Positions 5,901-54,556 of a DNA stretch of 64,000 nucleotides are shown one piece after another (within the stretch, counting starts at the first letter, position 1; every line of letters begins with the position of its first letter). Where the stretch lies: contig OU452208.1 in assembly GCA_911728435.2 (NCBI GenBank), forward strand, positions 10,098,499 through 10,162,498, written 5' to 3'. The stretch is from Apoderus coryli. Its lineage: Eukaryota; Arthropoda; Insecta; Coleoptera; Attelabidae. The notes below the pieces were generated by a model, which was given only the letters and a program-made list of their open reading frames with translations, had not been told where the DNA came from and did not search any database. Made by a program: the position numbers and the translations under genes.

Positions 5901-6465
5901 TCATTACACTTCATGAGACAATAAAATTATAATAATTGAATTACTCTTGGCCAATGTGACCGAATTATCATAAATTATATCGTAATAAACTGATATTTTG
6001 TTCATAAATAAGTATATAGACACTTCGTTATTTATTAGTAATTTATTTATGGAGTGTCTAATTATTCTTGTTACTATTCATTTAATATTATATTTACATG
6101 AAAATGGAAGTTGTATTAAGAGCAAAAGGGAAGAACTAATAATTTTTTTAATGCAATGTGACATTAATTTGTCATTCAAAAATGTATTAGATTTGCTCTT
6201 GTAAATATTTATTTTTAGCCACCGAAGTTTCTTTTAAATCCAAACATTGCTAATTAACGAAAATGTGGTGAAAATAATTAAAATGGAAGAAAATAATTAC
6301 TCAAATAAAGCTTTAATGAACTTATTTATTATTTATTAGAAATGTGACGAAATTATAAAAAGAACATTCAGTTTAATGAAATGTATCCTGATTTACAACC
6401 AATGAATATGAGGAGGTTCCCACTAGGTAATACAAAATAATTTCAAGTAAACAGACAAAATATTA

Positions 6466-6637
6466 TACGAGGCATGTTTTTTAAGTAAGTACCGTTTTGG
6501 AATTAAAAAAAGACGTACAAAGATATCGCAATAATTTTATTTTTACAGGCTTTCATGTAAAAATAAAATTATTGCGATATCTTTGCACGTCTTTTTTTAA
6601 TTCCAAAACGGTACTTACTTAAAAAACATGCCTCGTA
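6466..6637. mobile_element. Palindromic mariner-type MITE (fold-back)
   Basis: Arms 6460-6547 and 6556-6643 are reverse complements over 88 bases with one mismatch, separated by an 8-base loop. Each end reads TA-CGAGGCATG, the TA presumably being the target duplication of a mariner-type element; the palindrome even runs a few bases past it. There is no coding sequence: it is two TIRs back to back. Near-perfect arms imply a young copy or one kept identical by gene conversion. Confidence 0.75.
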
Positions 6638-6864
6638 TAATATGTAACAGTATATCGTCATCATAACATAGAATAAGAATGTTTTTTGTCATCTTGCAAA
6701 CCTTGGACAAGGTCTTGTCTAAGTTGCAAACTGTGTGCTTATGATGCTTTTTGTGTGGTGGCAGCACTAGGACGTTGTACAACAGCTAATATACACAAGC
6801 TTAGCTGTGGTTGTACTAGCTGGCCACCAGTGGCGGAGGTTGTTAGATGGTTTGGGTTGTTACA

Positions 6865-10441: not shown

Positions 10442-10815
10442 ATTTATCCTATTTTTAATTTTATTTTTGGTCTTTGTCTCGGAAGTAGCAAAGCCAGGTG
10501 TAAGGCTGCGGTCTTCACAATTAAGTTCTAAATCAACTGTATTTTTGGTCTTTGTCTCGGGAGTAGCAAAGCCAGGTGCAAGGCTGCGGTCTTCACAATT
10601 AAGTTCTAAAGCAATTTTATTTTGGTCTTTGTCTCGGAAGTAGCAAAGCCAGGTGCAAGGCTGCGGTCTTCACAATTAAGTTCTAAAGCAATTTTATTTT
10701 TGGTCTTTGTCTCGGGAGTAGCAAAGCCAGGTGCAAGGCTGCGGTCTTCACAATTAAGTTTTAAATCAATTTTATTTTGGTCTTTGTTTCGGCAGTTGCA
10801 AAGCCTGCGGTGGAA
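10442..10815 (+). repeat. 78-bp tandem repeat in the 3' region of the LTR element
   Basis: Units starting ggtctttgtctcgg occur at 10469, 10547, 10624, 10702 and 10779, a period of 77-78 bases, each containing tagcaaagccaggtg and ctgcggtcttcacaatt. There are four full units and a diverged fifth. Frames crossing the array on both strands (10606-10912) are by-products of the repeat, not genes. Placement between integrase and the 3' LTR is where some gypsy elements carry repeats. Confidence 0.9.
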
Positions 10816-10953
10816 GACTGCGGACTTCCCCATATGTAAAGATGGCAAATTGCGTGGTACTTGCCACAAATCTACTGTCGATAATCATACTTGTTACAGG
10901 TTTGAACGATAATGAGTGAGGCGCCGAGAGCGTCGCCAATGTCAGTATGGCCG

Positions 10954-15000: not shown

Positions 15001-17348
15001 CAAGCGGTCCCCAGGAAGTTCAAAAATCATGGCGGCATGGCATGGCATGTTAGACCTATCCGAAAGGTAGGAGCTTACGTAATATTTAATATTTCGCATG
15101 ATTGAAGTCACATAATCATCTACATTTTCTAAATAAATGTTTTACATTAAATGCTCGGTAAATCGATACACTTGGCATCATGGCGCTGTATCATAACCTT
15201 TAAGCTAATGTCTAATTTAAACTTCAGTTGGGCAGGCGTTCATAGGCGTCGTAAAAAGGGAGTTTAACATGATTTACAAAAAAATTATTTTCAGCCCTAA
15301 TAAAAATGTTGGAAATTTTTTGAAAGGCGATTCTGTTAAATCTTATTTTTCTCTACCTCTAGTTAAAATTTTTGTACTGAGTGATAGTTCACCCTGTATT
15401 TCGGTTGTTATTAGAATTACGGGAAAAGTGTTTTCATAAAAGTGAAAGATAATTTGATGTTTAATCCAGTGGCGTACCAATAATTTTTTTCGAAGTCCAA
15501 TTGTTCAAGATATCGCTATCAACTATATTAAGGCGTCAGTAGATTCCAAATTTCGTTCCCTGTACAACCATGTATGACAAGTAGCTACATATTTAGTAAA
15601 ACTTAATAAAAATAAATAAAAACTCGTACGCATGGTGACAATCACCACGGAAGTAACCGTGGTGATTGTCACCATGCGTACGAGTTTTTATTTATTATAC
15701 TCGAGGAAGGGATAAATTGTATATGTCACGCCCTAGACCCGAGGTATTTAAAAAATCGTCATTATACTCGGGAAACCAGTTCTTCAATCTGTTTCCTAAG
15801 AACATAAGGAGTTGTCCGACTGCGAGGGTAGATTCAAAAACATATGTTTTTCTTTCGGATCCTTTAGCTTTTTCAAAGCAGTTACTGATGTTTTTTGATC
15901 TGGTTAAAATTACCGACTATTTTTTATGGGTCTGTGTTATTATAGCGTTCTGATATCCTTGAAACAGTCGCACCGGTACGATCTTTTCAGAACGTGGTTG
16001 CTTAGACGCCTTTTAATTCACATATCACTATATCCTTATAACTCATAAGGGTATTGTAAGACATATGTACGAGGGTTGCCTTTTCTATTTCGGGATTTGG
16101 CAACCCTGGTGTTGCAATCTGGCAACTGACAGCTCTATCGTAAAGTTGGACATTTTTGAGGTTATACGTACTTAGAACGTTTTGACATACGAGCGCTATT
16201 TGTGTTGTTTACAGTAACTTAAAAGATGCATCTCGGTCCAAAAATGGAATTAAATCGTGAACATTTTCGTGCGATTATTTTTTACAGCTTTCGACGTGGA
16301 TTAACTCAGCAACAGTGCATGGATGAACTTAATTCAATTTTTGGCGATGAAGCTCGATCAAGGACCAGGGTTTATCGATGGTATAGTGAATTCAATCGTG
16401 GTCATAGTTCACTCCTAGACGAATTTCGTGAAGGTCATCCAAAATCAATTGTTGTTCCGAAAACCATTGATGCTGTGCGCGAACTGATATTGCAAGATCG
16501 TCATGTGACCTATCAAGAGATTGAGACAACCTTAGGCATTAGTGGGACCAGCATACATTCAATATTGCATAAACATTTGACTGTCAAAGAAATTTGTTCG
16601 CGTTGGATCCCACACAATTTGTCAATCGCTCAAAAAAAAGGCTCCTGTCGATTAGTCGAAAGAAATGCTAAAAAAATATGATATCTGTGCTTCGAACCAC
16701 GTCTATGACATCGTAACAGGTGATGAATCGTGGATTTACGCGTATGAGCCCGAAAGTAAACAGCAGTCGACTGTATGGATGTTTCATGATGAGCCAAATC
16801 CAACAAAAGTTGTTCGCGCACGAAGCACTTCCAAGCAAATGGTCGCCAGTTTTTCCGGAAAAACTGGACATGTCGCAACCGTACCACTAGGACAACGCGG
16901 AACAGTCAATTCTGAGTGGTACACAACCATTTGTTTGCCAGTTGTCTTCCAAGAAATCAGGAAAACCAACCGCCGAAGACGGGTCACTTTCAGAATGCAT
17001 GTTTTGGAGATACCTCAATCAGAGTGGCAAAAGTGCTTCGACAATTGGTTCAAAGGCATGCAAAAGTGTATAGATGTTCATGGGGAATATTTTGAAAAAC
17101 AATAAAGTGATTTTCGATGATTAGTATTTGTTTTTGTTCTCTAATCCCGAAATATAAAAGGCAACCCTCGTAGTACTCACCTCTTTCAAAACCATTTCAT
17201 ATGGTGGGGGTGGCGTAGTGCCCGGAGTATCAATATTATTCATTTCTAATCCGGTAGATGTTGGCTCGTTGATCTCGATGCTATTCTCTGACTGACAAAC
17301 AGTTTGATCGAGTGAATTTCCCCGTGCCGGGGAATTTGGTTTTGACAT
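12035..17348 (-). CDS. Small two-coding-exon protein with PPPPY motif and CVIL prenylation box
   Basis: I do not recognise this gene. Coding exon 1 is 17348-17181 (56 codons, MSKPNSPARG ... TTPPPPYEMVLKE) and ends at AAAGAG|gtgagtac. The exon starts after a ttttttttcag acceptor at 17424; the frame stays open back to it, so an upstream coding exon cannot be excluded. Exon 2 is 12322-12035, after tattaacttcgtag, and reads MKMSKQESVQS to HGSACVIL-stop. Both boundaries are phase 0, giving 151 aa. Visible motifs: PPxY (WW-domain ligand), a Cys-rich block CKMSDQCRCFDCQSHYFDC, and C-terminal CVIL, a CaaL box expected to be geranylgeranylated. Inference: a small membrane-tethered adaptor. No signal peptide or membrane segment. 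The 4.86 kb intron contains transposons at 12564-15396 and 16068-17172. The direct exon join is inferred; more exons could lie between. Confidence 0.65.
13183..13217. repeat. Short perfect inverted repeat
   Basis: Arms cccagataagtaa and ttacttatctggg, 13 bases each with a 9-base loop. Function unknown; possibly the core of a small nested MITE. Confidence 0.5.
14000..14350. promoter_or_regulatory. Cluster of TATCGATA-type motifs, possible promoter
   Basis: Within 300 bases are aatcgatatcg near 14049, tatatcgatattttg near 14283 and atatcgatatggcgg near 14300, followed by gtcatcgcgtttctgacgtc. TATCGATA is the DRE/BEAF-type box of insect housekeeping promoters. No gene start is evident downstream: the next coding trace is a transposase relic. 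It may be an alternative intronic promoter or chance in AT-rich DNA. Confidence 0.25.
14466..14800 (+). pseudogene. N-terminal fragment of a Tc1/mariner-group transposase
   Basis: In three frames the translation runs RANRAAVEYRRRFPNRK, then HVVAVLNLIEEEPSISTTE followed by IAKRLGISQ, then RRILKENWFQPYRIQKIQAL. These are the two helix-turn-helix blocks that open insect transposases of the DUF4817/DDE_3 kind. At least two frameshifts and a stop separate them, and no catalytic domain follows. Confidence 0.65.
14866..15240. other. Unassigned interior of the degenerate element
   Basis: Less AT-rich than its surroundings (gggatccaccttgtgatcg near 14937), without a frame I recognise. Possibly a nested repeat. 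Confidence 0.3.
15611..15696. repeat. Perfect 40-bp hairpin
   Basis: Arms 15611-15650 and 15657-15696 are exact reverse complements with a 6-base loop (aagtaa). The loop-side half is mixed-composition sequence (gtgacaatcaccacgg), the outer half AT-rich. It sits in the intron of the minus-strand gene, so transcripts of that intron would contain an 86-nt perfect hairpin. It could be a tiny MITE or a small-RNA precursor; nothing distinguishes these from sequence alone. Confidence 0.75.
16068..17172 (+). mobile_element. mariner-type element with internal deletion
   Basis: Ends are TA-cgagggttgccttt on the left and aaaaggcaaccctcg-TA on the right, with inverted similarity over about 28 bases. The copy is 1.1 kb where full relatives are about 1.3 kb. 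It lies directly after the donor splice site at 17180 (gtgagtac, then TA and the element), in the first intron of the PPxY/CaaX gene, without disturbing the exon. Confidence 0.88.
16226..17105 (+). pseudogene. mariner (SETMAR-like) transposase, catalytic core deleted
   Basis: N-terminal helix-turn-helix region is intact (FRAIIFYSFRRGLTQQQC, DEARSRTRVYRWYSEF). The frame then breaks near the poly-A run at 16631, and a TAG stands where DWSKEM is expected (gat tag tcg). The second frame resumes with VTGDESWIYAYEPESKQQ, the first catalytic Asp. After TTICLPVVFQEIRKTNRRR the sequence jumps to FRMHVLEIPQSEWQKC and ends EYFEKQ. The roughly 70 residues normally between these, carrying the second (HHDNA) and third (SPDLAPND) catalytic Asp, are gone. 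The protein is therefore dead twice over, while both TIRs survive. Confidence 0.9.
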
Positions 17349-17423
17349 CTTCCTGAATCGTATTCTAAATGGCGCCAGATTGACTGAATTGGTAATATAT
17401 GACAAAAGGAAACAAATAGGAAC

Positions 17424-17739
17424 CTGAAAAAAAAAATGTAAGTATATAAATTTATGGTGTTGATAGTATTTCATTATAGTACTTAATATGAGTATGTTAG
17501 GTTTTACAATTTTAAAGTACCATAGGTATTCGAGTTATTAAAATTGATGACTTTCAGTTAAAACATTATTTTTAGAGCTTAAAGTCTGGAGTCTGGTAAT
17601 GCCAAAACTAAACGCTATGCCCAATGTTCCCATTCATCCCTCTTTCTTGTCAGAGAGTTGGTAGTTTAATTTCCCTACAAACCAGAGTGGCCAGTAACCC
17701 AGACGAGAGCCAAATTATTGTTTTCCCCAATATTGATAA
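17424..17739. other. 5' flank or upstream intron of the PPxY/CaaX gene
   Basis: Contains the pyrimidine tract and cag acceptor (minus strand, 17424-17440). An upstream exon presumably lies further right but I could not identify it. Confidence 0.35.
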
Positions 17740-17930
17740 TCAATTCTCGTGCTAGTATAAGCTCTTTGTAAATGTTGGAAATTTGGGTCACACTGCCTGC
17801 CGATCACCACTGATGAGTCGTGGATCGACGAAACGGCCGTCTGGTGAAAGCATGGTAGTGTGAAACAAATTTCCAACATAACTTAAAGTCTTGTCGCTTT
17901 ATGTAACAAGCAATTCTTAACTAACAAATA
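17740..17930 (+). repeat. Dispersed repeat carrying a hammerhead ribozyme, copy 1
   Basis: From tgctagtataagctc to aacaagcaattcttaac. Two further copies lie at 41430-41620 (minus) and 41635-41800 (plus). The central part is bounded by gttggaaatttgggtcacac and its near inverse gtgtgaaacaaatttccaac. It has no coding sequence. Size and ribozyme content fit a Penelope-like-element pseudo-LTR or a retrozyme-like non-autonomous retroelement; which one cannot be decided here. Confidence 0.75.
17804..17847 (+). ncRNA. Type I hammerhead self-cleaving ribozyme
   Basis: All core parts occur in order: TCACCA (17804-17809, stem I 3' strand), CTGATGA (17810-17816), GTCG/CGAC stem II closing loop TGGAT (17817-17829), GAAAC (17830-17834), loop GGCC, then GTC (17839-17841), with predicted cleavage after C17841. 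TGGTGA (17842-17847) pairs with TCACCA to close stem I. Stem III within one molecule is only two pairs, but ACGGCCGT is a perfect palindrome, so two molecules could pair there, as in the dimeric hammerheads of newt satellites and Penelope-like elements. No activity is proven. Confidence 0.8.
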
Positions 17931-17949: not shown

Positions 17950-19632
17950 TGTTAACATTAGGAAGAAGTCTAAATATTTCAAAAAATGGAAGGTCACTGG
18001 TGATAATACCTTTCATAACATGTTTCACACTCTGAGGGCACAGGTATACCAAAAAATAAAGATGGCATATGCCGCCTACATTGCCGACATCCATAACATC
18101 AATAAAAAGTGACGCTAGAGAATTCTGGAAGTTTGTACAAATCAAAAAACGGGGATCTCGTATTCCCGGTAATATGCAGGGTCCACAGGGGGATCTATTA
18201 CTGAATCCTGGTGAAATTGTCAGCGGATTTGCCAAATTTTTCAATAGTGAATATACAGAATCTTCACAGGTACCTTATAGGGATCCTCTAAATCTTGATC
18301 TATCAATATCTGTGGGTTTACTTACGCAAACCCAAGCTGACTGCGGGTCATGACAATGTACCTGCATTTGTTGTACGGGATTGTGCTTATGTGTTTGCGA
18401 AGCCCCTTGAAATAATTTTCAACAAATGTATGAAATCGGAGATATTCCCAGACTAGTGGAAGCTTGCCAGAGTTGTTCCTGTTCATAAGTCCGGCGATGA
18501 TTCTCAAATATCTAACTACAGACCTATCTCAATTCTGCCCAATTTTGCGCAGATCTTCGAGACGGTGCTGCATGACAAGATATTTGATCAAACAAAGAAC
18601 CGCATAGTCCGGAAACAGAATGGCTTTTTTCGCGGGTGTTCGACTGTAAGTAACTTTTCATGGTTTCTGCAAGATATTTACTGTGCTCTTGGAAGGGGAC
18701 TACAGGCGGACGTTATTTACACGGACTTCACAAAAGCCTTCGATAGGTTAGAACATTCAATAGTTCGACAGAAGATGGGTAATATCGGTTTTGATGAGAT
18801 CCTGCTAAACATTTTTGATACTTACCTGTACAACCACAGACAGTATGTAGAGTATAATGGATTTAAATCCGCGGAAATGATTATTTCTAGTGGAGCTCCT
18901 CAGGGAAGTAACCTGGCCTCATTAAAATTTGCTATTTATATAAATGATATCAAAACTCATTTATCTAGTTCATGTATTTGTATGGTCGCCCTACTACACG
19001 GTTCATAAGAACAAGTTGGAGTACGTACAACGTAAGTTCTTGAGATATCTATCTTTTAAAAGTGATGGGAGTTTTCCTACAAGAGGTTGTGACCATCAAG
19101 TGCTGTTAAACAAATTTAATTTTGACTCGCTGGCAGATCGTCGAATATTTACCGACCAAGTTTTTCTTTATAAATGAATTAACAACGTTATTGACTGTCC
19201 GAATTTATTACAACAAATACATTTTAATGTACCTCAGTTTAATTCGCGTAAGCCGAACCTATTTAGATTACCTCAAACTCATACTAATTATGAACAAAGA
19301 GCTCCATTATTCAGGGCATGCGACGTGTGCAACAGTTCCCATTTGCATCATAATATTGATTATTTTGATAAATCTTGAAACCGATTCCGAAAAAGCCTTT
19401 GGTACTACCTCCGCACTCTTGAATTTTAAATAATTTGTCTGTTATTTGTATTATTTGTATATAAGTATGTAATTTTTGTATATTTTGTGATATTGTATTT
19501 ATATCTTATCATTGCTATTATTATTAATAAGCACATTATTATTATCAGAATTTGTATGCAAATAGGTACGTTGTCTTGTAATTGGGTATTTCGCGGATTA
19601 GACAATAAAGACTATTGTTATTATTAGTAAAT
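17950..19632 (+). pseudogene. Non-LTR retrotransposon (LINE), 5'-truncated and RT-deleted
   Basis: Pieces in order: FHTLRAQVYQKIKMAYAAYI, REFWKFVQIKKRG, then WKLARVVPVHKSGDD and ISNYRPISILPN, YTDFTKAFDRLEHSIV, SSGAPQGSNLA and FAIYINDI (RT fingers and palm), then NKLEYVQRKFLRYL and FDSLADRR (post-RT region of Jockey/CR1-type LINEs). The FADD catalytic box is missing: INDI at about 18950 runs within 20 codons into the post-RT region. Several frameshifts are present. The 3' end has an AATAAA and a ttattattag tail near 19610-19630, so this end is intact. Confidence 0.85.
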
Positions 19633-23070: not shown

Positions 23071-24790
23071 GTGTTTAATATGGAATTACTGAATAAAAAT
23101 TACCATAAAACGAATTGGTTTCAATATGGATTAATAAGAAATTCTTTATTTGGGAATTGTTGGTTTCAATAAGGCATTCCAAATCAAATGTTTAATTTGG
23201 TTTTATCAGTTTGAATTAGTTTTTATGCGGCATAAAACTGCTTATTTCAATTGCGTTTAATATGGAAGTACTGAATAAAAATTACCATGGAACGAATTGG
23301 TTTCAATATGGATTAATAAGAAATTCTTTATTTGGAATTTATTGGTTTCAATAAGGTATTCCAAATCAAATGTTTAATTTGGTTTTATCAGTTTGAATTC
23401 GTTTTTATGCGGCATAAAACTGCTTATTTCAATTGCGTTTAATATGGAAGTACTGAATAAAAATTACCATGGAACGAATTGGTTTCAATATGGATTAATA
23501 AGAAATTCTTTATTTGGAATTTATTAGTTTCAATAAGGTATTCCAAATCAAATGTTTAATTTGGTTTTATCAGTTTGAATTAGTTTTTATGCGGCATAAA
23601 ACTGCTTATTTCAATTGCGTTTAATATGGAAGTACTGAATAAAAATTACCATGGAACGAATTGGTTTCAATATGGATTAATAAGAAATTCTTTATTTGGA
23701 ATTTATTGGTTTCAATAAGGTATTCCAAATCAAATGTTTAATTTGGTTTTATCAGTTTGAATTAGTTTTTATGCGGCATAAAACTGCTTATTTCAATTGC
23801 GTTTAATATGGAAGTACTGAATAAAAATTACCATGGAACGAATTGGTTTCAATATGGATTAATAAGAAATTCTTTATTTGGAATTTATTGGTTTCAATAA
23901 GGTATTCCAAATCAAATGTTTAATTTGGTTTTATCAGTTTGAATTCGTTTTTATGCGGCATAAAACTGCTTATTTCAATTGCGTTTAATATGGAAGTACT
24001 GAATAAAAATTACCATGGAACGAATTGGTTTCAATATGGATTAATAAGAAATTCTTTATTTGGAATTTATTGGTTTCAATAAGGTATTCCAAATCAAATG
24101 TTTAATTTGGTTTTATCAGTTTGAATTAGTTTTTATGCGGCATAAAACTGCTTATTTCAATTGCGTTTAATATGGAAGTACTAAATTAAAATTACCATGG
24201 AACGAATTGGTTTCAATATGGATTAATAAGAAATTCTTTATTTGGAATTTATTAGTTTCAATAAGGTATTCCAAATCAAATGTTTAATTTGGTTTTATCA
24301 GTTTGAATTAGTTTTTATGCGGCATAAAACTGCTTATTTCAATTGCGTTTAATATGGAAGTACTGAATAAAAATTACCATGGAACGAATTGGTTTCAATA
24401 TGGATTAATAAGAAATTCTTTATTGGGAATTTATTGGTTTCAATAAGGTATTCTAAATCAAATGTTTAATTTGGTTTTATCAGTTTGAATTAGCTTTTCT
24501 GCGGCATAAAACTGCTTATTTCAATTGCGTTTAATATGGAAGTACTGAATAAAAATTACCATGGAACGAATTGGTTTCAATATGGATTAATAAGAAATTC
24601 TTTAATTGGAATTTATTGGTTTCAATAAGGTATTCCAAATCAAATGTTTAATTTGGTTTTATCAGTTTGAATTAGTTTTTATGCGGCATAAAACTGCTTA
24701 TTTCAATTGCGTTTAATATAGAATTGCTGAATAAGAATTTCCACGATGCGATTGGTTTCAATACGGATTCAATAAAAAATTTCATTCATG
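23071..24790 (+). repeat. 182-bp tandem satellite array, nine units plus a partial
   Basis: The motif gcgtttaatatggaagtac recurs at 23253, 23435, 23617, 23799, 23981, 24163, 24345 and 24527, every 182 bases, with a further start at 24709 and a first diverged unit at 23071. Inner units are almost identical; the first and last are diverged, the usual pattern of unequal crossing-over. No open frame crosses the units. Confidence 0.95.
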
Positions 24791-29191: not shown

Positions 29192-30079
29192 CCTTAGAAG
29201 GTAGCTTTGGTATTTTGAAAACCGTATAATTTTGAACGTTCAAGTATCATTGATATCATGACTAAAATAGAACTTTTGGGTTCTCACTTGCTACCGTTTT
29301 ATAGGTTTCATTATGATCATGAGGCAGATTTTCCTTATGACACAAAGTTAAAAAAACCAATTCAGGAAGTTTATTTTATTTCCACACCAATAATTTAATT
29401 TATTATTATTTGCAATGTTTTTAAACAAATTTTGTATTCAGTGCGATAAGAAGTCTGCCGTTCTATGATTCTTATACGTTTGCAATTTAAGGTTTTGTTT
29501 GTGGACTTATTTGTTGTTCTTTCTATATTTCAATATTAATCTTCAAGTACATTTCTGTCTCATCCACCTAATTATAATATCTTTTATTCAGTCTGGAAAA
29601 TTAACAAGAACCCTGTCCGAGGACATTACAATGTTTGTATTGTAAATACTTACGTTTTACCAAAGATTAATCTACACAATAGATAGTCAGCCCAATGCAT
29701 TAAAATGAGAACATCTCTAAGTATGCCAGCCACTACGTGGCGTAGACTAGCGTGTAAAGCATAGAGCAGTATTGTCACAGCCAGAAACCGTTTTGTAGTT
29801 TATTAATATCAGAAACAAAACGCAACGTATAACAATTATTTACATCATTTGCAACAGTTATGCACCGACAATGCTGTATTGTCAGAGAGAGAGATTGATG
29901 AAATTCTGTATTAATCTGGAGGGGATACGTAGGGAGGGTAGAAAAAAAAACAAGCGAATGTGGTGTGTGTCGTGCTGTTGCCGATTCGTCGGTAAAAGAA
30001 ACACACAGGGTGATTTATTACAAGTACAGTATTGAAATAAAAGCCTTATCTCTATGAATTAAATTTAATATAATAATAT
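29192..30079. other. Non-coding; includes a 33-bp dispersed repeat
   Basis: The 33 bases at 29659-29691 (centred on gattaatctacacaatag) recur exactly, inverted, at 43699-43731. A cacacagggtgatttatt piece lies near 30001. No gene seen. Confidence 0.45.
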
Positions 30080-30312
30080 TTAATCCATGTCATACATGTT
30101 TCAAGACTAGACCAGTCCCATGATCAGTGGCGAACAATCATTAAATGAAAAGCTTTTAGATAGAAACATACTTCTGGCTCCATTGTAATAATTTGTTGAT
30201 GTATATAAAAAAATCTAAATATCTAAAAGCTAAAAGCTTTTGATTTAATTATTGCTCGCCACTGTTTATGGGACTGGTCTAGTCTTGAAACATGTTGTAT
30301 GGCATGGATTAA
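30080..30312. mobile_element. Fold-back MITE with about 80-bp arms
   Basis: Left arm ttaatccatg ... gactagaccagtcccat ... cagtggcgaacaat; right arm attgctcgccactg ... atgggactggtctagtc ... catggattaa. The arms match with few differences around a central core that includes aaaagctttt. The inner cagtggcg/cgccactg pair recalls hAT termini, but no 8-bp duplication fits them, so the outer ends are more likely the true ends. Confidence 0.75.
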
Positions 30313-30798
30313 TGATTATTAGGTATATTAAATTTATTTCGTGGATATTAGACTTTTATACCAATACCGAAATCAAGTAGGTATTAATGTACATTATTCT
30401 TTGTCAAAATTATAACTCCACTTAAGAATTGACTAGATACTTTTTCAATTTATTACATATATTTTAAATATTTCACGTAGACAATGTGGCAAAGATGTAA
30501 CAAGATTGTTGTAGATCTTATAATACCTATAATAAAAAAATTATCAGTGCTACCTATATTATATTAGGTATACATATTATGGTTGTTTTCATACCTACTA
30601 ATTTTGTTTTGAAGAGAATTACCTAATATATTAAATTAAATTTAATCTTTGGCTGCGTAGTTATTTTTTTTGTGAATATTTTTTAACTTATTTTGTGTTT
30701 TTCTAATTTTAGACTAATTATATTATTTTGTGTTGTGTTTTTTTTTTATTTGAGAAACTTCCTAGTTAGTGACTAAATAATTTTTGTGTTTTGTGAAA
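30313..30798. other. 5' flank of the THAP9-like gene
   Basis: AT-rich upstream region with long T runs. No TATA box can be picked with confidence. Confidence 0.35.
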
Positions 30799-33789: not shown

Positions 33790-36331
33790 GAGACGCGGAG
33801 CTTCTACATTTATCGCCTGAAAAACTATACGAAAGAAAACGCGTGTGCAGTGTACATTTTGTCGAAAACGATTTTGTAAATCGCAAAAAAGAAATAGACT
33901 TAATTACTTCGCGGTTCCGCAAAACTATAAAGAGACACTAGACTTGACTGAATCTTTAGTAGTTGTCCCACCATTGGAGACATATAGTAATTCAAAAATA
34001 AATAATTCGCCACGTGATTCTTCAATGGTAGCTGTTGAGCTAAGTAGTTCAAACCAAACAACACACATGTCGCCACAACGGAACACATACTTGGAAGCCA
34101 TTTCAGATATGCCTACACCATCTCCAAGAACTAAAATGTTACGACGACGACGTGTTCTTTTTCCGAAAATTTCGACAAATTCCTCTGTATCACAATTTAA
34201 AAATCTTCTTTCCATACAAAAACGTCAATTGCGTAAGAAAAATTTGACGATTGCAAAACTGAGGCAACAGTTACGCATGCAAAGCAAAATGCGTGAAAGA
34301 AAAACAAGTGTTGATATGTTTAGTCTCAAATCAAAATATGCCGAAGCACTTGTTAATATGCAGATACACCACAAACCTGGTCGTCCCTGGACAGAAACTG
34401 AAAAGGACTTGAGTCTTTTGTCCTATTATAAATCCCCAAGCGCCTATAAATATTGGCGAAACAATTTAAAAATCTCTATGCCCAGTGTGTCCACTATTCG
34501 AGCCTGGATTAGTGACATTCCGTGCCTAGCTGGTTTTAATGAGGGTATTATTGAAGAACTTAAACGAAAAGTATCTACCATGGAAGAAAATGAAAAATAT
34601 TGCACTCTAATTTTTGACGAAATTTCTATAAAAAAATACCTTCAATATTCGGCAAAATATGATAAAATCGAAGGTTTTCATGACCACGGTGGGAACACAA
34701 GGAAAAACATGTTTGGTAGTCAAACAATGCTTTTTTTGTTACGAGGAATATACAAAAATTGGAAATATCCGCTAGCATATTTTGTTTCTGCAACGGCAAT
34801 GTCGGGCAAAGATCTTAGGCCTAATTTAGAAAATGCGTTAACAATTCTTTTAGATATTGGCCTAAAAGTTGTAGCCGTCGTTTGCGATCAAGGCAAAAAC
34901 AACCAATCCGCAATGAAAGCTCTAGGGGTGACCAGAGATAAGCCGTTTTTTTATATTGGCCAATCAAAAATATTTTCAATATACGATGCTTTACATTTGA
35001 TAAAAAATTTTAGAAATAATTTTCTGCATAACAGGTATTTGTTTAAAAACAATTTAGTAAATTTTGATGACATAAGAAACGCATATAGGATTGACCAAAA
35101 TAGTACTTCAAGCAGAAGTATGATTAAAATTAGTGAAGCCCATCTTAACCCAGATAATTTCCAAAAAATGAGTTGTAAATTGGCTACTCAAGTATTTAGC
35201 AATTCTGTCGCCGCAGCTATAAGAACTGCAGTTAGTACTAATGAATTAGTGTCGCCGACTGCATTGCATACCGCAGATTTTATTCAATTTGTTAATAATT
35301 TATTTGACACGTTAAATAGTAAAGAGCTCTTCGCGAAGAACCCATATGCTTCTGCCCTTTATAATGAAAGACCCATAATACAAGAAACTATGGAAGGCGC
35401 TATTGAAGTAGTGCTGACGTTAGCAAAAGAAGGCAAAGTTGGAGTGTATAGTAGACCTGATTGCTTCGATGGGATGATACAATCTTTAAAAGCAGTTCTT
35501 GGGATTTATGAAGAAAATAAAAAATTTGGGTTTCACTACTTATTGACCAATAGATTAAACCAAGATCCAATAGAAAATAAATTCTCTTCATTTAGGCAAC
35601 GTGGTGGTTATAATCCTAATCCCACAGTAAGAACGTTTCGAACTACATTTCGTTTATCGCTTAAGGTAAATCTTTTAAAACCTACAAATATTTCATCGAA
35701 TTGTGAAGACGATGAAGAAAGTACTACTCGTATATGTCCGTCATCTGATGTGATGGCTCCGTTTCAGCTTGCACAAGTTGAAGTCCGTACTATGCCAGAT
35801 ACATCATCACCGGCACCTTCTAGTATTTCAGTGAGTTGTGGCTCTGAAGTACCAAAAAGAACAAAAGTTACTTTACAGGATTGTTCTGACACTTACTTTG
35901 CAGGCTATTTAATCAATAAAACATTAAATAAATTTAATAATTGCACAAATTGTGCAACTCACCTAATTGATGCGTCAAACATACTTGGGGATAAAAATCA
36001 ATTATTAATTTTAAACAAGACATATCGTAATGTGTCAACTGGCTTGAAAAAACCAGTCCCTCGGTTAGTAGTTTTTGTGAAAAAATGTTTAGTTTACATA
36101 CATAAAGTTTTAAATAATAGTCCACACAGAAATAATCTTTCTCAATATATAAAAGAAAAAATTTTAAGAAATTTTATTGCGATATTTCCCCCAGCATGTG
36201 AACATCATACCGCATATTTTATTGATTTAATGATTCGGACAAAAATATATAAGGAATGTATATGGAGAACATCTTTTTCAAAAAAAACTATTAGAAGAAA
36301 ACGAAAGGTAGATATTCTACAAAATTTGTAA

Positions 36332-37209: not shown

Positions 37210-39296
37210 CAGGGTGGTCCAACGAAAAGTTTGCACCTAGCTTTTCTCTTTTTTTTGTAGTCGAATGCGAAAATGCTCGGACACGTCGATTTTGCTTTTG
37301 AGGGGGACACATTTTAAACATATTTTTCGATCTGCGCCTTTAACCCCCTAGCGGGGGTGAGTAACAACCCTAAAATTTTAAATGGAAAGAGGGGTCTAAT
37401 GACATATCATTTGAAAGGACACAAAATTGTCTTTCTAATGATACCCTATTTGTCGAATTTTACTAAAACAGTTAATACGAAAACGACTTTAAAGACATTA
37501 AGCCGATAATTTTGGTATTAATGAGAAATACAAATAAGTTTTAATTATTGCGAGTGAAAACACCTGCAATCGTTAGTACATTCCAATGTTTGTTAGTCTT
37601 AACATTGCTTTGTAAAAAAAGTAAACAAGCTGTTAAATTGATTTATTAAAACGTTACATTAACAAATGTTGAAAATGTGACCCATTTGATTCCATACAAT
37701 AATACAGATTTTGTTCAAATCTATTTCTAACATTTTGTAGCATATCAGGTGTTATGTTTCTGCACTCTTCTGTAATGCGTTGGCGAAGATCTTCTATGGA
37801 CTCGGGCTTCGTGGCAAAACATTTATTTTTTAAGTGCCCCCAAAGAAAAAAGTCTAAAGGCGATAAATCCGGTGACCTGGCAGGCCATTCAATTGGGCCC
37901 CTCCTTCCAATCCACCGTCCAGGGAACCGGTCATCTAAGAACTGTCTTACAGGAGCCACATAGTGCGGAGGTGCTCCATCTTGCTGGAAATAAAGCCGAT
38001 CAGCAGTATGATTTTGGTCATCTTCTATTATTTGTGTTATTAAAGGATCAATTGTGTCTTCAAGCATGTTTAGGTACACTTCACCAGTTAAATTTCCAGG
38101 AATAAAAAGTGGTCCTATAATATGATTTCCTAATATGCCACACCAGACGTTTATTTTTTGAGGATACTGGGTATGAACCTCACGGAATAAATGTGGGTTA
38201 CTGTCATCCCAGTAACGGCAATTGTGCCTATTTACAGCTCCATTCAAATAAAATGTGCATTCGTCGGAAAAACAAATGTTAAATAATAATTGCGGATCTT
38301 CAATTAAACGCTGGCTCATTGCTTCACAAAATTGCAGCCTTCTATCAGGATCATCCTCATTTAGTTCCTGTACTAATTTGATTTTGTACGGATGAAATTT
38401 GTACGCTTTTAAAATTCGTATTATGGACGAACGGGAGACACCTGAGGCTTCAGCTAGTTGACGGGTACTTTGACTATGATCCATTTCAACATGCCCTAAA
38501 ACAGCGACTTCCACAGCTTCATTTCTGATCGGTTTCTGCGGCTGGTGTTTTACATTACAGACAGATCCGGTATCTACAAACTTTTTAACTAACTTGCCAA
38601 CGTACACATCATTCACATTTTTATCGGGATGTCTCTCATTAAATAAGCGAGCCGTAAGTCTAGCACTACTATTATTTTGAAAATAAAGTTTAACAATTTC
38701 AACTCGTTCTAGAATGGAATAAATCATTTTGTACGGTAAAAGTAAAATAACTTGAGAAGCAACCAAACTGAATCAATGAAAAGACTAAAATAAACGGTGT
38801 AAATTCTTTTCCTACACGTATCTGCAGTTTTTATTTCAACAAAAAACGCAAACGATTAGTGAGGAATTTAGTTCTGATAAATAAGATAGTGTTTTTGAAA
38901 TCCCGTTTTTCTTCAAAGTAAATAATTTAGAAATGATTGTAGTTGTTTTCAGTCGTAATAATTAAAACTTATTTGTATTTCTCATTAATACCAAAATTAT
39001 CGGCTTAATGTCTTTAAAGTCGTTTTCGTATTAACTGTTTTAGTAAAATTCGACAAATAGGGTATCATTAGAAAGACAATTTTGTGTCCTTTCAAATGAT
39101 ATGTCATTAGACCCCTCTTTCCATTTAAAATTTTAGGGTTGTTACTCACCCCCGCTAGGGGGTTAAAGGCGCAGATCGAAAAATATGTTTAAAATGTGTC
39201 CCCCTCAAAAGCAAAATCGACGTGTCCGAGCATTTTCGCATTCGACTACAAAAAAAAGAGAAAAGCTAGGTGCAAACTTTTCGTTGGACCACCCTG
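37210..39296 (-). mobile_element. Complete Tc1/mariner-superfamily element with long TIRs
   Basis: TA flanks both ends; termini read CAGGGTGGTCCAACGAAAAG and its inverse. The terminal inverted repeats run about 345 bases (37210-37555 and 38952-39296) with almost no differences, then fade. One transposase frame fills the middle on the minus strand. All structural parts of an autonomous element are present, which makes it the best candidate for a recently active transposon here. Confidence 0.92.
37654..38727 (-). CDS. Tc1/mariner-superfamily transposase, DD41D type, intact
   Basis: From ATG at 38727 the frame is 357 codons (the open stretch begins at 38766 but without an ATG). N-terminal paired-type HTH region: YSILERVEIVKLYFQNNSS, SARLTARLFNERHPD, then STRQLAEASGVSRSSIIRIL. 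DDE domain: FSDECTFYLNG (first Asp), LYFQQDGAPPHYV (second Asp), WPARSPDLSPLDFFLWGHL (third). Between the second and third Asp I count 41 residues, matching the DD41D (rosa-like) group rather than mariner DD34D. It ends SHFQHLLM. The enzyme cuts and joins at TA; no stop or frameshift is visible. Confidence 0.9.
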   Translation of the reverse strand: MIYSILERVEIVKLYFQNNSSARLTARLFNERHPDKNVNDVYVGKLVKKFVDTGSVCNVKHQPQKPIRNEAVEVAVLGHVEMDHSQSTRQLAEASGVSRSSIIRILKAYKFHPYKIKLVQELNEDDPDRRLQFCEAMSQRLIEDPQLLFNICFSDECTFYLNGAVNRHNCRYWDDSNPHLFREVHTQYPQKINVWCGILGNHIIGPLFIPGNLTGEVYLNMLEDTIDPLITQIIEDDQNHTADRLYFQQDGAPPHYVAPVRQFLDDRFPGRWIGRRGPIEWPARSPDLSPLDFFLWGHLKNKCFATKPESIEDLRQRITEECRNITPDMLQNVRNRFEQNLYYCMESNGSHFQHLLM

Positions 39297-41160: not shown

Positions 41161-41429
41161 CCACCATTGTTTTTCCCCCACAATAGCAAACATCTTTTAT
41201 TTGAACTTGTATAACATGTATAATATGTAATTTAAATCCATTGATATGCTCTTTGTACAATATATTTTTGAAGAGTTAACATGAAAACATGGCTTTTCCA
41301 CTGATACACCCAAGTTTTTAAGGCTGATTGGTTTTTCATTGATCGCATATAATAGTAACCATTTTTAATCCGCATTCTATAAGAATTTTTATAGCCGCCT
41401 CTAAAATATACTTTAAATAAACATGATTA

Positions 41430-41620
41430 ATAGTAATGAATTGCTTGCTACATAATGTAACAAGACAATAAGTTATGTTGGAAATTTGTTTCACACTACC
41501 ATGCTTTCACCAGACGGGCAGTTTCGTTGATTCACAATTCATCAGTGGTGATCGGCAGGCAGTGTGACCCAAATATTCAACATTTACGAAGAGCTTATAC
41601 TAGCATGAGAGATGAATGAC
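41430..41620 (-). repeat. Hammerhead-bearing dispersed repeat, copy 2
   Basis: Reverse-orientation copy of 17740-17930, from catgctagtataagctctt (minus strand, near 41605) to gtagcaagcaattcatta near 41440. With copy 3 it forms an inverted pair around about 40 bases. Confidence 0.75.
41507..41551 (-). ncRNA. Hammerhead ribozyme, copy 2
   Basis: Minus strand: TCACCA, CTGATGA, ATTG-TGAAT-CAAC (stem II with one A-C mismatch at its base), GAAAC, TGCCC, GTC, TGGTGA. All core nucleotides and stem I are kept; the stem III palindrome of copy 1 is lost. Probably weak or inactive compared with 17804-17847. Confidence 0.65.
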
Positions 41621-41634
41621 ATATCATAATTACA

Positions 41635-41800
41635 GGTAGTGTAAGCTCTTTGTAAATGTTGGAAATTTCGGTCACACTGGGTTGTGGATCAACGAAACTG
41701 CCCGCCTGATGAAAGTGTGGTAGTGTGAAACAAATTTCCAACATAACTTAAAAAGTCATGTATGTATGTAACAAGCCATTCATTAATAAAGCTTCCCGTC
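41635..41800 (+). repeat. Hammerhead-bearing dispersed repeat, copy 3 (ribozyme destroyed)
   Basis: Same frame of motifs as copy 1, but the stretch with CTGATGA is deleted and the cleavage triplet reads GCC. GTTG-TGGAT-CAAC and GAAAC remain. Confidence 0.65.
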
Positions 41801-44353: not shown

Positions 44354-45461
44354 ACGTAGAGAGTGAAGATATTTTAGACAATAAGACATGAGGAACGGAA
44401 AGTTAGTATTATTCAATAACAATTTTATGTTATAATTTTTTCTATAAAAAAAGTCCTAACATCTTTTTTTTTTATTAGTATTTTATAGTCGACAAAAATA
44501 TTGGGTTTACTTTTTATCCGTTTTATACACTTTTCACGGGATTCTCTAAGGCACTCATTTTATATCGCGTATGTAGACCAAGTTTACTATGTGGCTATGT
44601 GGTGTATCTGCTGTCTTCAGGCAAGCCCAGTAAGATTTTTAGGTAGTTATGTTTTTTTTTATTTTGCCAAAAGTTCAGAACTTAGAAATGTTCAGTAGTA
44701 TGGTTTACCAAATTTGGTTCAACAAGTACTTATTTACGTATAAAATGACCTAAAACACTTATTTATGATAACATTCCAAAAATAATTTTCATTAAACTTA
44801 GCCGCGCAATATATTATGGAGCCCTAAAACTTTAATAGCTACTTATTTAGTTCACAATATATATCTTCTAAAACATTTCCATAATCAGATTATTATTGAA
44901 ACCCAAGACAAGACGTCTTTAAACTTCTTTACGCCTACGCCAGTGTGGTGATTTTAAAAGACTAGACACTTGCCTGATATAAATTAAATAATTAGGTATA
45001 TTATGATTATTAATTTCGCGTAAAAATTTAGTATTCATCATTTTACATAATATATGTATGACAAAAAATATATGTTAGCTCAAAGAACTATTAATATGTT
45101 CTAAATAAAACATAATTGAATTATGATTTTGATATCTTTGGGTTGGTTTCTACTCATCGATTAAGTATTATTAATATTTTATATTTTGTTTTAGGTGAAC
45201 ATTGAGATAAATATTGACATGTAATTTTAAAATAGAAAAAAAGTACATGTAACCGAGTGCAGACTGTTTTTTGCTTCCACAAATCCCAAAGTTATGGTTT
45301 TTTAAAACAATAATTCTAGACATATATAAAAAATAATAATAATAAATGAAAATTAATTCGACGAAGAGGTAAGTAATTCTATAATACTATAGACCTTAAC
45401 GTTTTTCAACAAAATTGAAGAGTTATAATTTATTTATAATAATATACAGGGATTTACATTT
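44354..45461. other. Intergenic, nothing recognised
   Basis: AT-rich; 44501-44698 is open but shows no splice context or motif. Confidence 0.4.
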
Positions 45462-47250
45462 AAATCCGTTCTAGATTTAAACAGGTTCTAGTGGGCAATC
45501 CTGATTGAATCTGATAACTACAAATGAATCCCAATAGCTTTTGCATTTGGATTTGCTTATAAAACCATATTAAATCCGTTCTAAATGTAAACAGGTTCTA
45601 TTGGGCAATCCTGATAGAAACTGATAACTACAAATTAATCCCAATAGCTTTTGCATTTGGATTTGCTTATAAAACCATATTAAATCCGTTCTAAATGTAA
45701 ACAGGTTTTATTTGGCAATCCTGCTAGAATCTGATAAATACAAATTAATCCCAATAGCTTTTGGATTTGCTTATAAAACCATATTAAATCCGTTCTAAAT
45801 GTAAACAGGTTCTATTGGGCAATCCTGATAGAAACTGATAACTACAACTTAATCCCAATGGCTTTTGTATTTGGATTTGCTTATAAAACCATATTAAATC
45901 CGTTCTAAATGTAAACAGGTTCTATTGGGCAATCCTGATAGAATCTGATAAATACAAATTAATCCCAATAGCTTTTGCATTTGGATTTGCTTATAAAACC
46001 ATATTAAATCCGTTCTAAATGTAAACAGGTTCTATTGGGCAATCCTGATAGAATCTGATAAATACAAATTAATCCCTATAGCTGTTGCATTTGGATTTGC
46101 TTATAAAACCATATTAAAACGTTCTAAATGTAAACAGGTTCTAGTGGGCAATCCTGATAGAAACTGATAACTACAAATTAATCCCAATAGCTTTTGCATT
46201 TGGATTTGCTTATAAAACCATATTAAATCCGTTCTAAATGTAAACAGGTTCTATTGGGCAATCCTGATAGAAACTGATAAATACAAATTAATCCCAATAG
46301 CTTTTGGATTTGCTTATAAAACCATATTAAATACGTTCTAAATGTAAACAGGTTCTATTGGGCAATCCTGATAGAATCTGATAAATACAAATTAATCCCT
46401 ATAGCTTTTGCATTTGGATTTGCTTATAAAACCATATTAAAACGTTCTAAATGTAAACAGGTTCTATTGGGCAATCCTGATAGAAACTGATAACTACAAC
46501 TTAATCCCAATGGCTTTTGTATTTGGATTTGCTTATAAAACCATATTAAATCCGTTCTAAATGTAAACAGGTTCTATTGGGCAATCCTGATAGAATCTGA
46601 TAAATACAAATTAATCCCAATAGCTTTTGCATTTGGATTTGCTTATAAAACCATATTAAATCCGTTCTAAATGTAAACAGGTTCTATTGGGCAATCCTGA
46701 TAGAATCTGATAAATACAAATTAATCCCTATAGCTTTTGCATTTGGATTTGCTTATAAAACCATATTAAAACGTTCTAAATGTAAACAGGTTCTAGTGGG
46801 CAATCCTGATAGAAACTGATAACTACAAATTAATCCCAATAGCTTTTGCATTTGGATTTGCTTATAAAACCATATTAAATCCGTTCTAAATGTAAACAGG
46901 TTCTATTGGGCAATCCTGATAGAATCTGATAAATACAAATTAATCCCAATAGCTTTTGCATTTGGATTTGCTTATAAAACCATATTAAATCCGTTCTAAA
47001 TGTAAATAGGTTCTATTGGGCAATCCTGATAGAAACTGATAACTACAAATTAATCCCAATAGCTTTTGCATTTGGATTTGCTTATAAAACCATATTAAAT
47101 CCGTTCTAAATGTAAACAGGTTCTATTGGGCAATCCTGATAGAAACTGATAACTACAAATTAATCCCAATAGCTTTTGCATTTGGATTTGCTTATAAAAC
47201 CATATTAAATCCGTTCTAGATGTAAACAGGTTCTAGTGGGCAATCCTGAT
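45462..47250 (+). repeat. 110-bp tandem satellite array, about 16 units
   Basis: aaatccgttctaaatgtaaa starts units at 45462, 45572, 45682, 45786, 45896 and 46006, and so on to 47207. Some units are 104 long through loss of a ttgcat/ttggat step. A three-unit higher-order pattern shows: the variant atattaaaacgttct appears at 46111, 46434 and 46763, about 325 bases apart. The first and last units share variants (ctagat, ctagtggg, cctgatt) rare in the middle. Confidence 0.95.
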
Positions 47251-47781: not shown

Positions 47782-50700
47782 CTATTGAATATTATCGTAA
47801 TCTGGGGGAATAGTTTTCGTTTTCATTAGAACGCATTTCCAAAAATTCTCAGGAGAAGTGTACATGCCAACCACAACAGGAAGTTCTTTTAACGAATTCC
47901 ACCATTTTCGCAATAACGGAAACTTATCATATTTTCGTGGTAATTTAATGTCCAAAGCTATCGCTAAAACTGGTGCCCGTTCACCCCATGGCCATAACAA
48001 ATAATCAACCTAAAATTACTATAATTTACATTGCAATCTTAACTACTATAAATAAGAAACATGCCATTCCAGGTTTTTCGCCACCAAAATACGTTGTTCT
48101 TTTCTCCGCCAAATAATCTTCGAAAACTATTAAAGCGTCTTCAAACTCTTCAACCCACTGTTCAGGAGTTTTAATCTCAAATTTCATTAAACATTTTGAA
48201 ATAATATCGCTAACAGGTACAATCTTTCTAATCAACTCTTTATGAGCAATTCTCTCTGACGGATCCGCAGGGTAAAGTGGGTTTTGCGGATACTTTTCAT
48301 CCAAATAGTCACATACAACAAGACTGTCAATTATTACTTTATCACCGTCAAGCAATGCTGGTACTTTGCCTTAAAAAAACATTCACTACACAGGGTGTCC
48401 AGATTTTCTTGTAATTGCGGGGTATGTTACTGTGAAAGTTAGCGGGATGCGGTTTTCGATATGAAAAAATGATGACAATAAAACGGGCTAAAACTCGAAC
48501 AAAAATTGTGAAAATTGATGCAATACTAAAAAAGTTCTTTAGGATTTTTAATATTGTATAGCAGTGTATAAGTTACAGTTAAAAGTTTGATTTTTTTTAA
48601 ATAAGTATCAAAAATTGAGAACATTATAGAAAAATAGTTTGTTATGAGGTTGTTTGGACACCCGGTCATTTCGATATAGTGTTAAATTCTGTCGCAATTA
48701 TCCTTTATGTTATTGTATTAGTCTTTTAAATAATGTAAATCTATATAGGTTAAAAAAATGTCTTTGTTCTTGTAGAAATAATATAATTTAATAGGAATGA
48801 AAGTCAATTCTCAACGAAATAAAACAAATATATATATTGCCAAACATATTTCAGAGCTCCAAACTCGATCATCAGTGGCCATACAATTTGTTAAAGAAGA
48901 GCTACTTTGAAATGTGATTGTAATAGCTTCTTAGTATTACGAACTCCCGATCATGATTTTCAAAAAGAAAAATAGATACGCATAATACCTTGAAATTAAC
49001 AGTTTTATCAATTTGACATAAAATTCTCACGAAGTGACCCGAATACAGTTCTCTGCACATTGCAATGTAGCTTTTCTTTAAAGAGTGTATGGCCACTGAT
49101 GATGGAGCTTGGAGATCCGAAACATGCTTGGTAATATATTTTTGTTTTAGTTCGTGTAGGATTGACTTCCATTCCTATTAAATAGAATTACAATAGGTGG
49201 CCAAAAAAACTCAAAACAATAAGTACATTTTTCAATAACGCTCTCGATATCTGATATTTCTAAAAATAAAAATATTAAGTATTGCATATCATTTGAAAAG
49301 AAGAAAATATGCTATTTAAATGGCTAAAAAATCATGGGGGTTCCATTTAACATAAGTTTGGTTCATATTTTGAAACTGAGGTAAAATTAAAAAAATAAAG
49401 GTACGCCTATAGGGCTCCACATGAAAACATCTATCAACTTTCACAATAATAGAGCTACCCGCCAATTACAAGGAAATCGGACACCCTGTAGAACGGCCGG
49501 GATGTAGATAAAGTAGGTACTAAGTTTTGTAAAGTCATATATGATGGTGGTTTGCAGTGGCGGCTCGTCAGGGCAGGCAAGGCAGGCAGTGCATGCTCAG
49601 ATTTGATTTCAGGGAAATTTTTATAATAGTATATTTATTCTATGTATCTACTATTTTTTTTTAATTCGTTACTCATATGTATAATATGCGTATATTGTTT
49701 TTCAACATTGTTTTATGAACGGGCCTGTAGAGACAGACCGTCCCGTCGCGTAGTGTAAGAGTGAGACACCAACATTAATTGTAATAACTGTAGAGTGAGA
49801 TAGGCATTAACATATGCCTTTGATTTTAATATTATTTTATTCTGTTTTCTTGCTAGGTGGACTATTCGTTTGAGCTGTAGGACAATGTTGTCAAATTGGA
49901 ATAAATTGTATGTGCCTAGCGTGAACATGGTCAGCGTAAATATTATATTTACGCTGGTATGGTATTTTATATTATGACAACATAGTGAATATAAAAATAT
50001 ATTTTAGTTTCGGTAATCCCGCAATATACTACCTACGTTCGTATAATAAAATGAAATTTGGTTAGTGGTGAGTTGGTTTCACTCTAATAATGGAGAAAAT
50101 AAATAGTACCTGACTAACCGTGTTTCGTTAAAGATTAACTAGTCTTTAATTTAATATTTTTCATTGTTAGTTCTTTTAGGTGTGTTCCACAATTTTTTAG
50201 ACTTAAATTAAAAAATGTTTATTCTTATTTCATAACTATATTCTCAACAGAAAATATTTACTCAAAATTCGCATACCTATAAACTGCATGGGTAAAAGAT
50301 TCTCTAAAAATTGAACATACCATTGGCAATGCTGCAAATATCCTAAATAAAACGTTCTCTACAGTGTCTTTCAAACAAAAAATTGATACCTAGAAAATTG
50401 GATTGGTTGCAAAGGATCCAAAAAAATTGTTAGTCAAATATTTGTAATTATTTTAATATTGTAAGTGAAATGTTGTGTGATTATTCGCGATCAGATGTAT
50501 GAAATCAAATTTGTCAAAGGTTATCATCCAGAGTATAGTAGCTATGTATTATCAGATATATATATATATACAATCTAACTTTGCAAATGATACGTTCCAA
50601 TTGACGGACAATAACACGAATAAGATAATAATCTATAGCATTTTAGAAAGTGTACGTTTAATTTCTAAAAATATTGAAACGTTTACATTTTTATATCGCA

Positions 50701-54402: not shown

Positions 54403-54556
54403 GTTTGTGAGTTGGAGGGGACATTGGTGTTTAGTACGCGTTTATGCACTACTGTCACCAGTGCTTCGGTAGCTCAATGGTAGAGCAAATGCCCGGAAAG
54501 CGTAAGAAGTGGGTTCGATTCCCACCTGAAGCGAATGTTTTTTCCAACTCACAGAC
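54403..54556. repeat. Imperfect inverted repeats around the tRNA-like sequence
   Basis: gtttgtgagttggaggggac (54403) and, inverted, gtctgtgagttggaaaaaac (54556) enclose the tRNA-like sequence. About 19 of 23 positions pair. Confidence 0.55.
54463..54533 (+). tRNA. tRNA-like sequence, GGA anticodon with short variable loop
   Basis: 71 nt fold as a full cloverleaf: acceptor GCTTCGG/CTGAAGC, D arm GCTC/GAGC with loop AATGGTA, anticodon stem AATGC/GCGTA (one mismatch), loop CCGGAAA, four-base variable loop, T arm GTGGG-TTCGATT-CCCAC. By position the anticodon is GGA (serine), but serine tRNAs have a long variable arm and this has none; position 33 is C instead of U. A normal serine tRNA is therefore unlikely. 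A tRNA-derived transposon piece or tRNA pseudogene is more likely. No T-run terminator closer than cgaatgtttttt at 54538. Confidence 0.6.

Follow-up and report, generated by a model that had tools for sequence, protein, structure and literature searches.

The window, by which we mean the whole 64-kb stretch of DNA analyzed here, contains a hammerhead ribozyme (HHR) motif within a short repeat, which we term F1. Two stretches at 47785–48370 (−) correspond to an omega-class glutathione transferase. When joined, they matched 68 proteins at E values up to 0.001, the top one with 53% identity over 99% coverage. The named matches are beetles as far as rank 41, and the first named non-beetle, a cockroach, appears at rank 42. 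This ranking agrees with the insect origin proposed in an earlier note on this DNA, and the window most likely derives from a beetle that has no close relative among these matches.

A P-element-like transposase is represented by an 836-aa open frame with TNP-like domains (33821–36328, +), and the relic of a relative lies beside one of the F1 copies (copy B; relic at 41260–41404). A mariner-like transposase frame of 372 aa (37657–38772, −) is 97% identical to a metagenomic protein; among the best 120 of its 3287 matches, three carry organism names, these being a scorpion and two weevil-group beetles. The YqaJ-like recombinase domain found at 50874–51188 (−; E = 3.5e-8) is unexpected in insect DNA and possibly belongs to a mobile element. 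Tandem arrays are built from a 182-bp unit (9.4 copies, 23073–24781), a 110-bp unit (16.4 copies, 45460–47250), and a 78-bp unit (4.8 copies, 10457–10828), the last overlapping the 3′ end of a frame in a retroelement-like region. The 182-bp array was considered as a hammerhead satellite and rejected, as it gave no Rfam match at E values up to 1, and neither the whole-window Rfam scan nor the motif scans detected a hammerhead in the 110-bp array. Long palindromes occur at 6460–6643, 15611–15696, 30029–30367, and 41431–41788, the last being the pair formed by F1 copies B and C. A tRNA is located at 54463–54533 (+; Rfam, 59.9 bits). Finally, a putative coding exon at 17124–17534 (−) was recognized by eye from a pyrimidine tract and AG before it and GTGAG after it; it has no Pfam match. 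If this exon is real, the first F1 copy (copy A) may lie antisense within an intron.

The Hammerhead Motif of Copy A

Type I hammerheads have the core CUGANGA … GAAA … UH and three stems, and are open at stem I. The motif in copy A occupies 17804–17847 (+), as judged by alignment to the Rfam family RF00163 and by direct reading. Its segments follow in order as TCACCA (17804–17809), CTGATGA (17810–17816), GTCG-TGGAT-CGAC (17817–17829), and GAAA (17830–17833), then CGGCCG, T17840, C17841, and TGGTGA (17842–17847). Complementarity is perfect in stem I (six of six) and in stem II (four of four), the consensus core bases are complete, and stem III consists of two pairs (A-U and C-G) around GGCC. 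The earlier note had described a complete type I HHR with these properties at this position, and direct reading bears it out. The predicted cut falls between 17841 and 17842, the same site as previously proposed.

With cmscan, model positions 1–45 of 45 in RF00163 were aligned to the motif with a score of 33.8 bits (E = 1.3e-6, 701 bp searched). Because the Rfam gathering score is 34 bits, the motif is missing from a standard Rfam scan of the whole window, in which the tRNA is the sole listed match. The earlier note had made a covariance-model score above threshold part of its own refuting test; on that count the motif falls 0.2 bits short, while its E value is strong, and the match is borderline rather than absent. 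Scanned for the complete motif, the window yielded one occurrence, that in copy A. The same scan of 300 dinucleotide-preserving shuffles returned two looser matches and none with six pairs in stem I and four in stem II. It is unlikely that the motif arose by chance.

Three Copies of the F1 Repeat

A blastn search with a 400-bp query around the motif identified F1 as a repeat of about 180–200 bp that is present three times in the window, in keeping with the dispersed repeat of roughly 200 bp described earlier. Copy A spans 17745–17923 (+), an extent delimited by its homology to copy B. Copy B (41431–41610, −) aligns to A over 180 columns with 90.0% identity, and copy C (41637–41786, +) is 76.7% identical to A (172 columns) and 74.9% identical to B (175 columns). 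Copies B and C are oriented head to head. Since they are less alike than A and B, they did not arise at one time as an identical pair; judging from these identities, it is more likely that B inserted beside an older C, or that the two represent separate subfamilies. The G+C content of F1 is 37–42%, and no Pfam match could be attributed to the unit.

Only one of the three copies (A) carries a complete HHR. The outline is still recognizable in copy B (41507–41551, −), although the basal pair of stem II, G-C in copies A and C, is replaced there by an A·C mismatch. In copy C, GTC reads GCC, and a gap of 20 alignment columns removes the 5′ side of stem I together with the first bases of the core. 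Neither B nor C gave an Rfam hammerhead match at E values up to 10. Within the motif, A and B differ by five substitutions and one indel, all located in stem II, loop II, or loop III. This pattern comes from one pair of copies and is no more than suggestive.

In an alignment of the three F1 sequences, 95.2% of the 104 cells assigned to the structure are paired. One stem II pair is changed on both sides, being C-G in A and U-A in the other two copies, a degree of covariation reached by 159 of 500 shuffles. Both changed positions lie in CpG sites of copy A and could have arisen by C-to-T and G-to-A decay, and we rejected this single pair as proof of the HHR. Matches to microRNA families over B and C were far below the cut-offs and are read as the B–C palindrome.

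Relatives of F1 were sought more widely: blastn detected none in phages or plasmids, and exact patterns were absent from viral contigs and prokaryote genome contigs. There are no head-to-tail tandem copies within the window; such copies may exist elsewhere in the genome. Close to the ends of copy A and of the B–C pair are 7-bp direct repeats, but 235 and 245 of 500 random placements, respectively, matched them, and at this chance level they were discarded as target-site duplications. By eye, TATAA followed by TCACAC some 30 bp on can be seen in copies A and B (17756–17793, +, in A), with TGTAA in C. The arrangement is reminiscent of the TATA/initiator pair described for one Penelope pseudo-LTR (PMC3846280).

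Hairpin, Fold, and Possible Dimer

Two features of the surrounding sequence, the inverted arms and the damage in copies B and C, were absent from the earlier note, as was a second HHR-like family described below. In copy A, stem I is extended into an inverted repeat whose left arm (17772–17809, +) and right arm (17842–17879, +) are each 38 nt long and 79% complementary, and the HHR forms its tip. The resulting 131-nt hairpin has a predicted energy of −60.8 kcal/mol (z-score −8.85), and none of 200 shuffles was equally stable. The arms are internal to F1, spanning 108 of about 180 bp, away from the ends of homology.

In the predicted fold, the extended stem I is interrupted by an internal loop at a distance of six pairs from the core. 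A loop that contacts loop II is commonly found at such a position in type I hammerheads. Enforcing the hammerhead fold carries a cost of 8.7 kcal/mol in copy A (−59.7 versus −68.4) and 6.6 kcal/mol in copy B (−49.6 versus −56.2). The minimum fold predicted for the monomer, under a model that has no tertiary contacts, would therefore hide the ribozyme. Plant retrozymes are likewise described as having predicted folds in which the hammerhead is blocked (PMC4918200).

The earlier note had pointed to a self-complementary stretch around GGCC and suggested that a dimer would pair through an 8-pair stem. In copy A, the stretch is indeed a perfect palindrome, ACGGCCGT (17833–17840, +), which includes stem III and could provide a dimer contact; its self-pairing energy is −14.1 kcal/mol. 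Copies B and C instead carry ACTGCCCGT, which pairs poorly with itself (−0.9 kcal/mol), so the palindrome is confined to A and the dimer is not a property common to all F1 copies. In the literature, most invertebrate HHRs are described as self-cleaving efficiently and amphibian HHRs as needing dimers (PMC7229834; PMC7761336), with the caveat that a weak helix III often prevents cleavage of the monomer (PMC7761336). Given both statements, a dimer of copy A is possible and not required.

A Second Hammerhead-like Family

The window contains five instances of the pattern CTGATGA-N(4–20)-GAAA, where 0.41 would be expected. Three of these sites belong to F1, one in copy A, one in copy B, and one in the right arm of copy C, and the other two define a second family, F2. 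Its minus copy (48786–48916, −; core 48849–48875) is 84.0% identical over 131 columns to its plus copy (49056–49183, +; core pattern 49096–49122), and the two are arranged head to head across 48786–49183, on the 5′ side of the glutathione transferase gene. Stem II is closed by a UGG loop and stem III is nearly absent. A relaxed hammerhead scan of the window matched copy A of F1 and the F2 minus copy only, the F2 plus copy giving no match; among 300 shuffles, 14 contained one match and none contained two. Neither F2 copy has an Rfam match at E values up to 10. On this pattern of sequence features, F2 is likely a hammerhead in a degraded state. The ACATG(T/C) adjoining GAAA suggests a minimal hammerhead of the dimer type. 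F1 and F2 were not accepted as one family, as their best match is just 10 nt of common CCACTGATGA (E = 0.051).

Discussion

F1 resembles two kinds of known element. Metazoan non-LTR retrozymes share with it the type I HHR, a size of 150–450 bp, low G+C content, lack of coding capacity, and strong self-pairing (PMC7229834; PMC4918200), and insects are named among their carriers as an item in a list (PMC7229834). According to the same source, they are mainly tandem and are known as circular RNA, whereas F1 is known from DNA, as single or head-to-head copies. Penelope pseudo-LTRs are likewise about 200 bp long, form head-to-head pairs, and carry type I HHRs (PMC3846280; PMC11167929; PMC6155905; PMC7761336). 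F2, nearly without stem III, is like the minimal hammerheads described for Penelope elements (PMC6155905; PMC7761336).

Similarities to satellite DNA are more partial. HHRs of newt and axolotl satellites are described as having a very short stem III, a palindromic tetraloop, and possible cleavage as dimers, as in copy A (PMC7229834; PMC6155905). Their unit, however, is 330–350 bp rather than about 180, and F1 lacks the palindrome in B and C and has no tandem array in the window. The pDo500 satellite of Dolichopoda cave crickets is, like F1, an insect repeat with an HHR-like motif (PMC2808323); it is a tandem satellite DNA, and the likeness to F1 is drawn from its description rather than its sequence.

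We consider copy A to be probably (at a probability of about 0.65) a short, non-coding, non-autonomous repeat, either a metazoan retrozyme or a Penelope-type pseudo-LTR with a type I hammerhead. The complete motif, the three-copy family, the hairpin arms, the head-to-head pair, and a host that is most likely a beetle are what the data show. The end-to-end alignment to RF00163, a motif beyond chance, three copies, a strong hairpin, and retrozyme-like size, G+C content, and self-pairing all favor this reading, as do the Penelope-like layout of B and C and the presence of F2 in the same window. Against it stand a score under the Rfam cut-off, the cost of the hammerhead fold (8.7 and 6.6 kcal/mol), the single complete copy among three, a covarying pair that 159 of 500 shuffles equal, and direct repeats at chance level. 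The lack of tandem copies in the window and of a GIY-YIG match in 29 of its 95 long frames, together with the intact insertion by HHR mutants of one Penelope element (see below), also weighs against it. The earlier note's further step, to a ribozyme-processed retroelement, goes beyond what the window offers, which includes no clear target-site duplication, no tandem array, and no GIY-YIG match in the frames tested.

We infer that such an element would be transcribed, cleaved, circularized, and reverse transcribed with the help of a partner enzyme. A transcript of the F1 unit would fold as a long rod capped by the HHR, and cleavage after 17841 would separate one arm from the other. Following the published retrozyme model, the cut would release unit-length RNA from longer transcripts. 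This RNA would then be closed into a circle, most likely by a tRNA ligase, and a reverse transcriptase supplied in trans would return it to the genome as DNA; Penelope-like elements have been proposed as the source of that enzyme. In vitro, HHR mutants of one Penelope element had no effect on insertion, and cleavage needed protein (PMC11167929).

It is also quite conceivable, if not our preference, that the source element had a working ribozyme and that the F1 copies are fossils, copy A being complete by chance of slow decay. Copies B and C are damaged, A lies among other transposable element relics, and a fold other than the hammerhead is predicted as the minimum. The confinement of the A–B differences within the motif to stem II, loop II, and loop III is harder to reconcile with a dead repeat, with the proviso that it comes from one copy pair.

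A narrower version of the preferred reading, and a more doubtful one, takes F1 as a pseudo-LTR, single or in pairs, that belongs to an autonomous Penelope-like element with full copies elsewhere in the genome, rather than as a separate retrozyme. In a rotifer study, pseudo-LTRs are 181–218 bp long and adjoin an inverted one, head to head being the commonest arrangement (PMC3846280), and the B–C and F2 pairs are both head to head; Penelope elements are also reported to bear type I HHRs (PMC6155905; PMC7761336; PMC11167929). These HHRs are described as minimal and devoid of helix III, whereas stem III of copy A is short but present. A Penelope pseudo-LTR would adjoin a frame encoding a telomerase-like reverse transcriptase and a GIY-YIG endonuclease. 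Of the 95 window frames of 75 aa or more, the 29 tested gave no GIY-YIG match and include no Penelope gene, although solo pseudo-LTRs would adjoin no such frame. Furthermore, B and C (74.9%) are less alike than A and B (90.0%), which is not the identical pair expected from self-priming.

There is little to recommend a foldback or MITE-like DNA element in which the motif arose in a hairpin by chance: the 38-nt inverted arms would suit it, but they are internal rather than at the ends of homology, a chance motif is unlikely, and there is no clear duplicated target. The 5′ ribozyme of a LINE, modeled on the HDV-like ribozyme carried by R2, is the least credible candidate and was rejected, as the reverse transcriptase fragment that follows A on the same strand (RVT_1, 18457–19005; LINE-like by our reading) has no counterpart at B–C, which adjoins the P-like transposase relic with no such LINE match found beside C, so that A and B–C share no common neighbor.

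To return to the preferred reading of a retrozyme or Penelope-type pseudo-LTR, one might go further and suppose that F1 joins the stem III hammerhead of retrozymes to the head-to-head layout of Penelope pseudo-LTRs, beside an F2 family with a Penelope-like minimal hammerhead. We regard this combination as unlikely. If it held true genome-wide, it would provide sequence evidence that animal retrozymes are moved by, or descend from, Penelope-like elements, a relationship so far just proposed in the papers cited.

Hammerhead repeats are already known from other animals, and F1 adds a good example from what is most likely a beetle. Searches of the open-licence literature, a scope outside which most subscription papers lie, brought up no title or abstract describing a hammerhead repeat in a beetle. 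With one complete and two damaged ribozymes and F2 within 64 kb, the window lends itself to studying which reverse transcriptase moves retrozymes and whether selection maintains the ribozyme.
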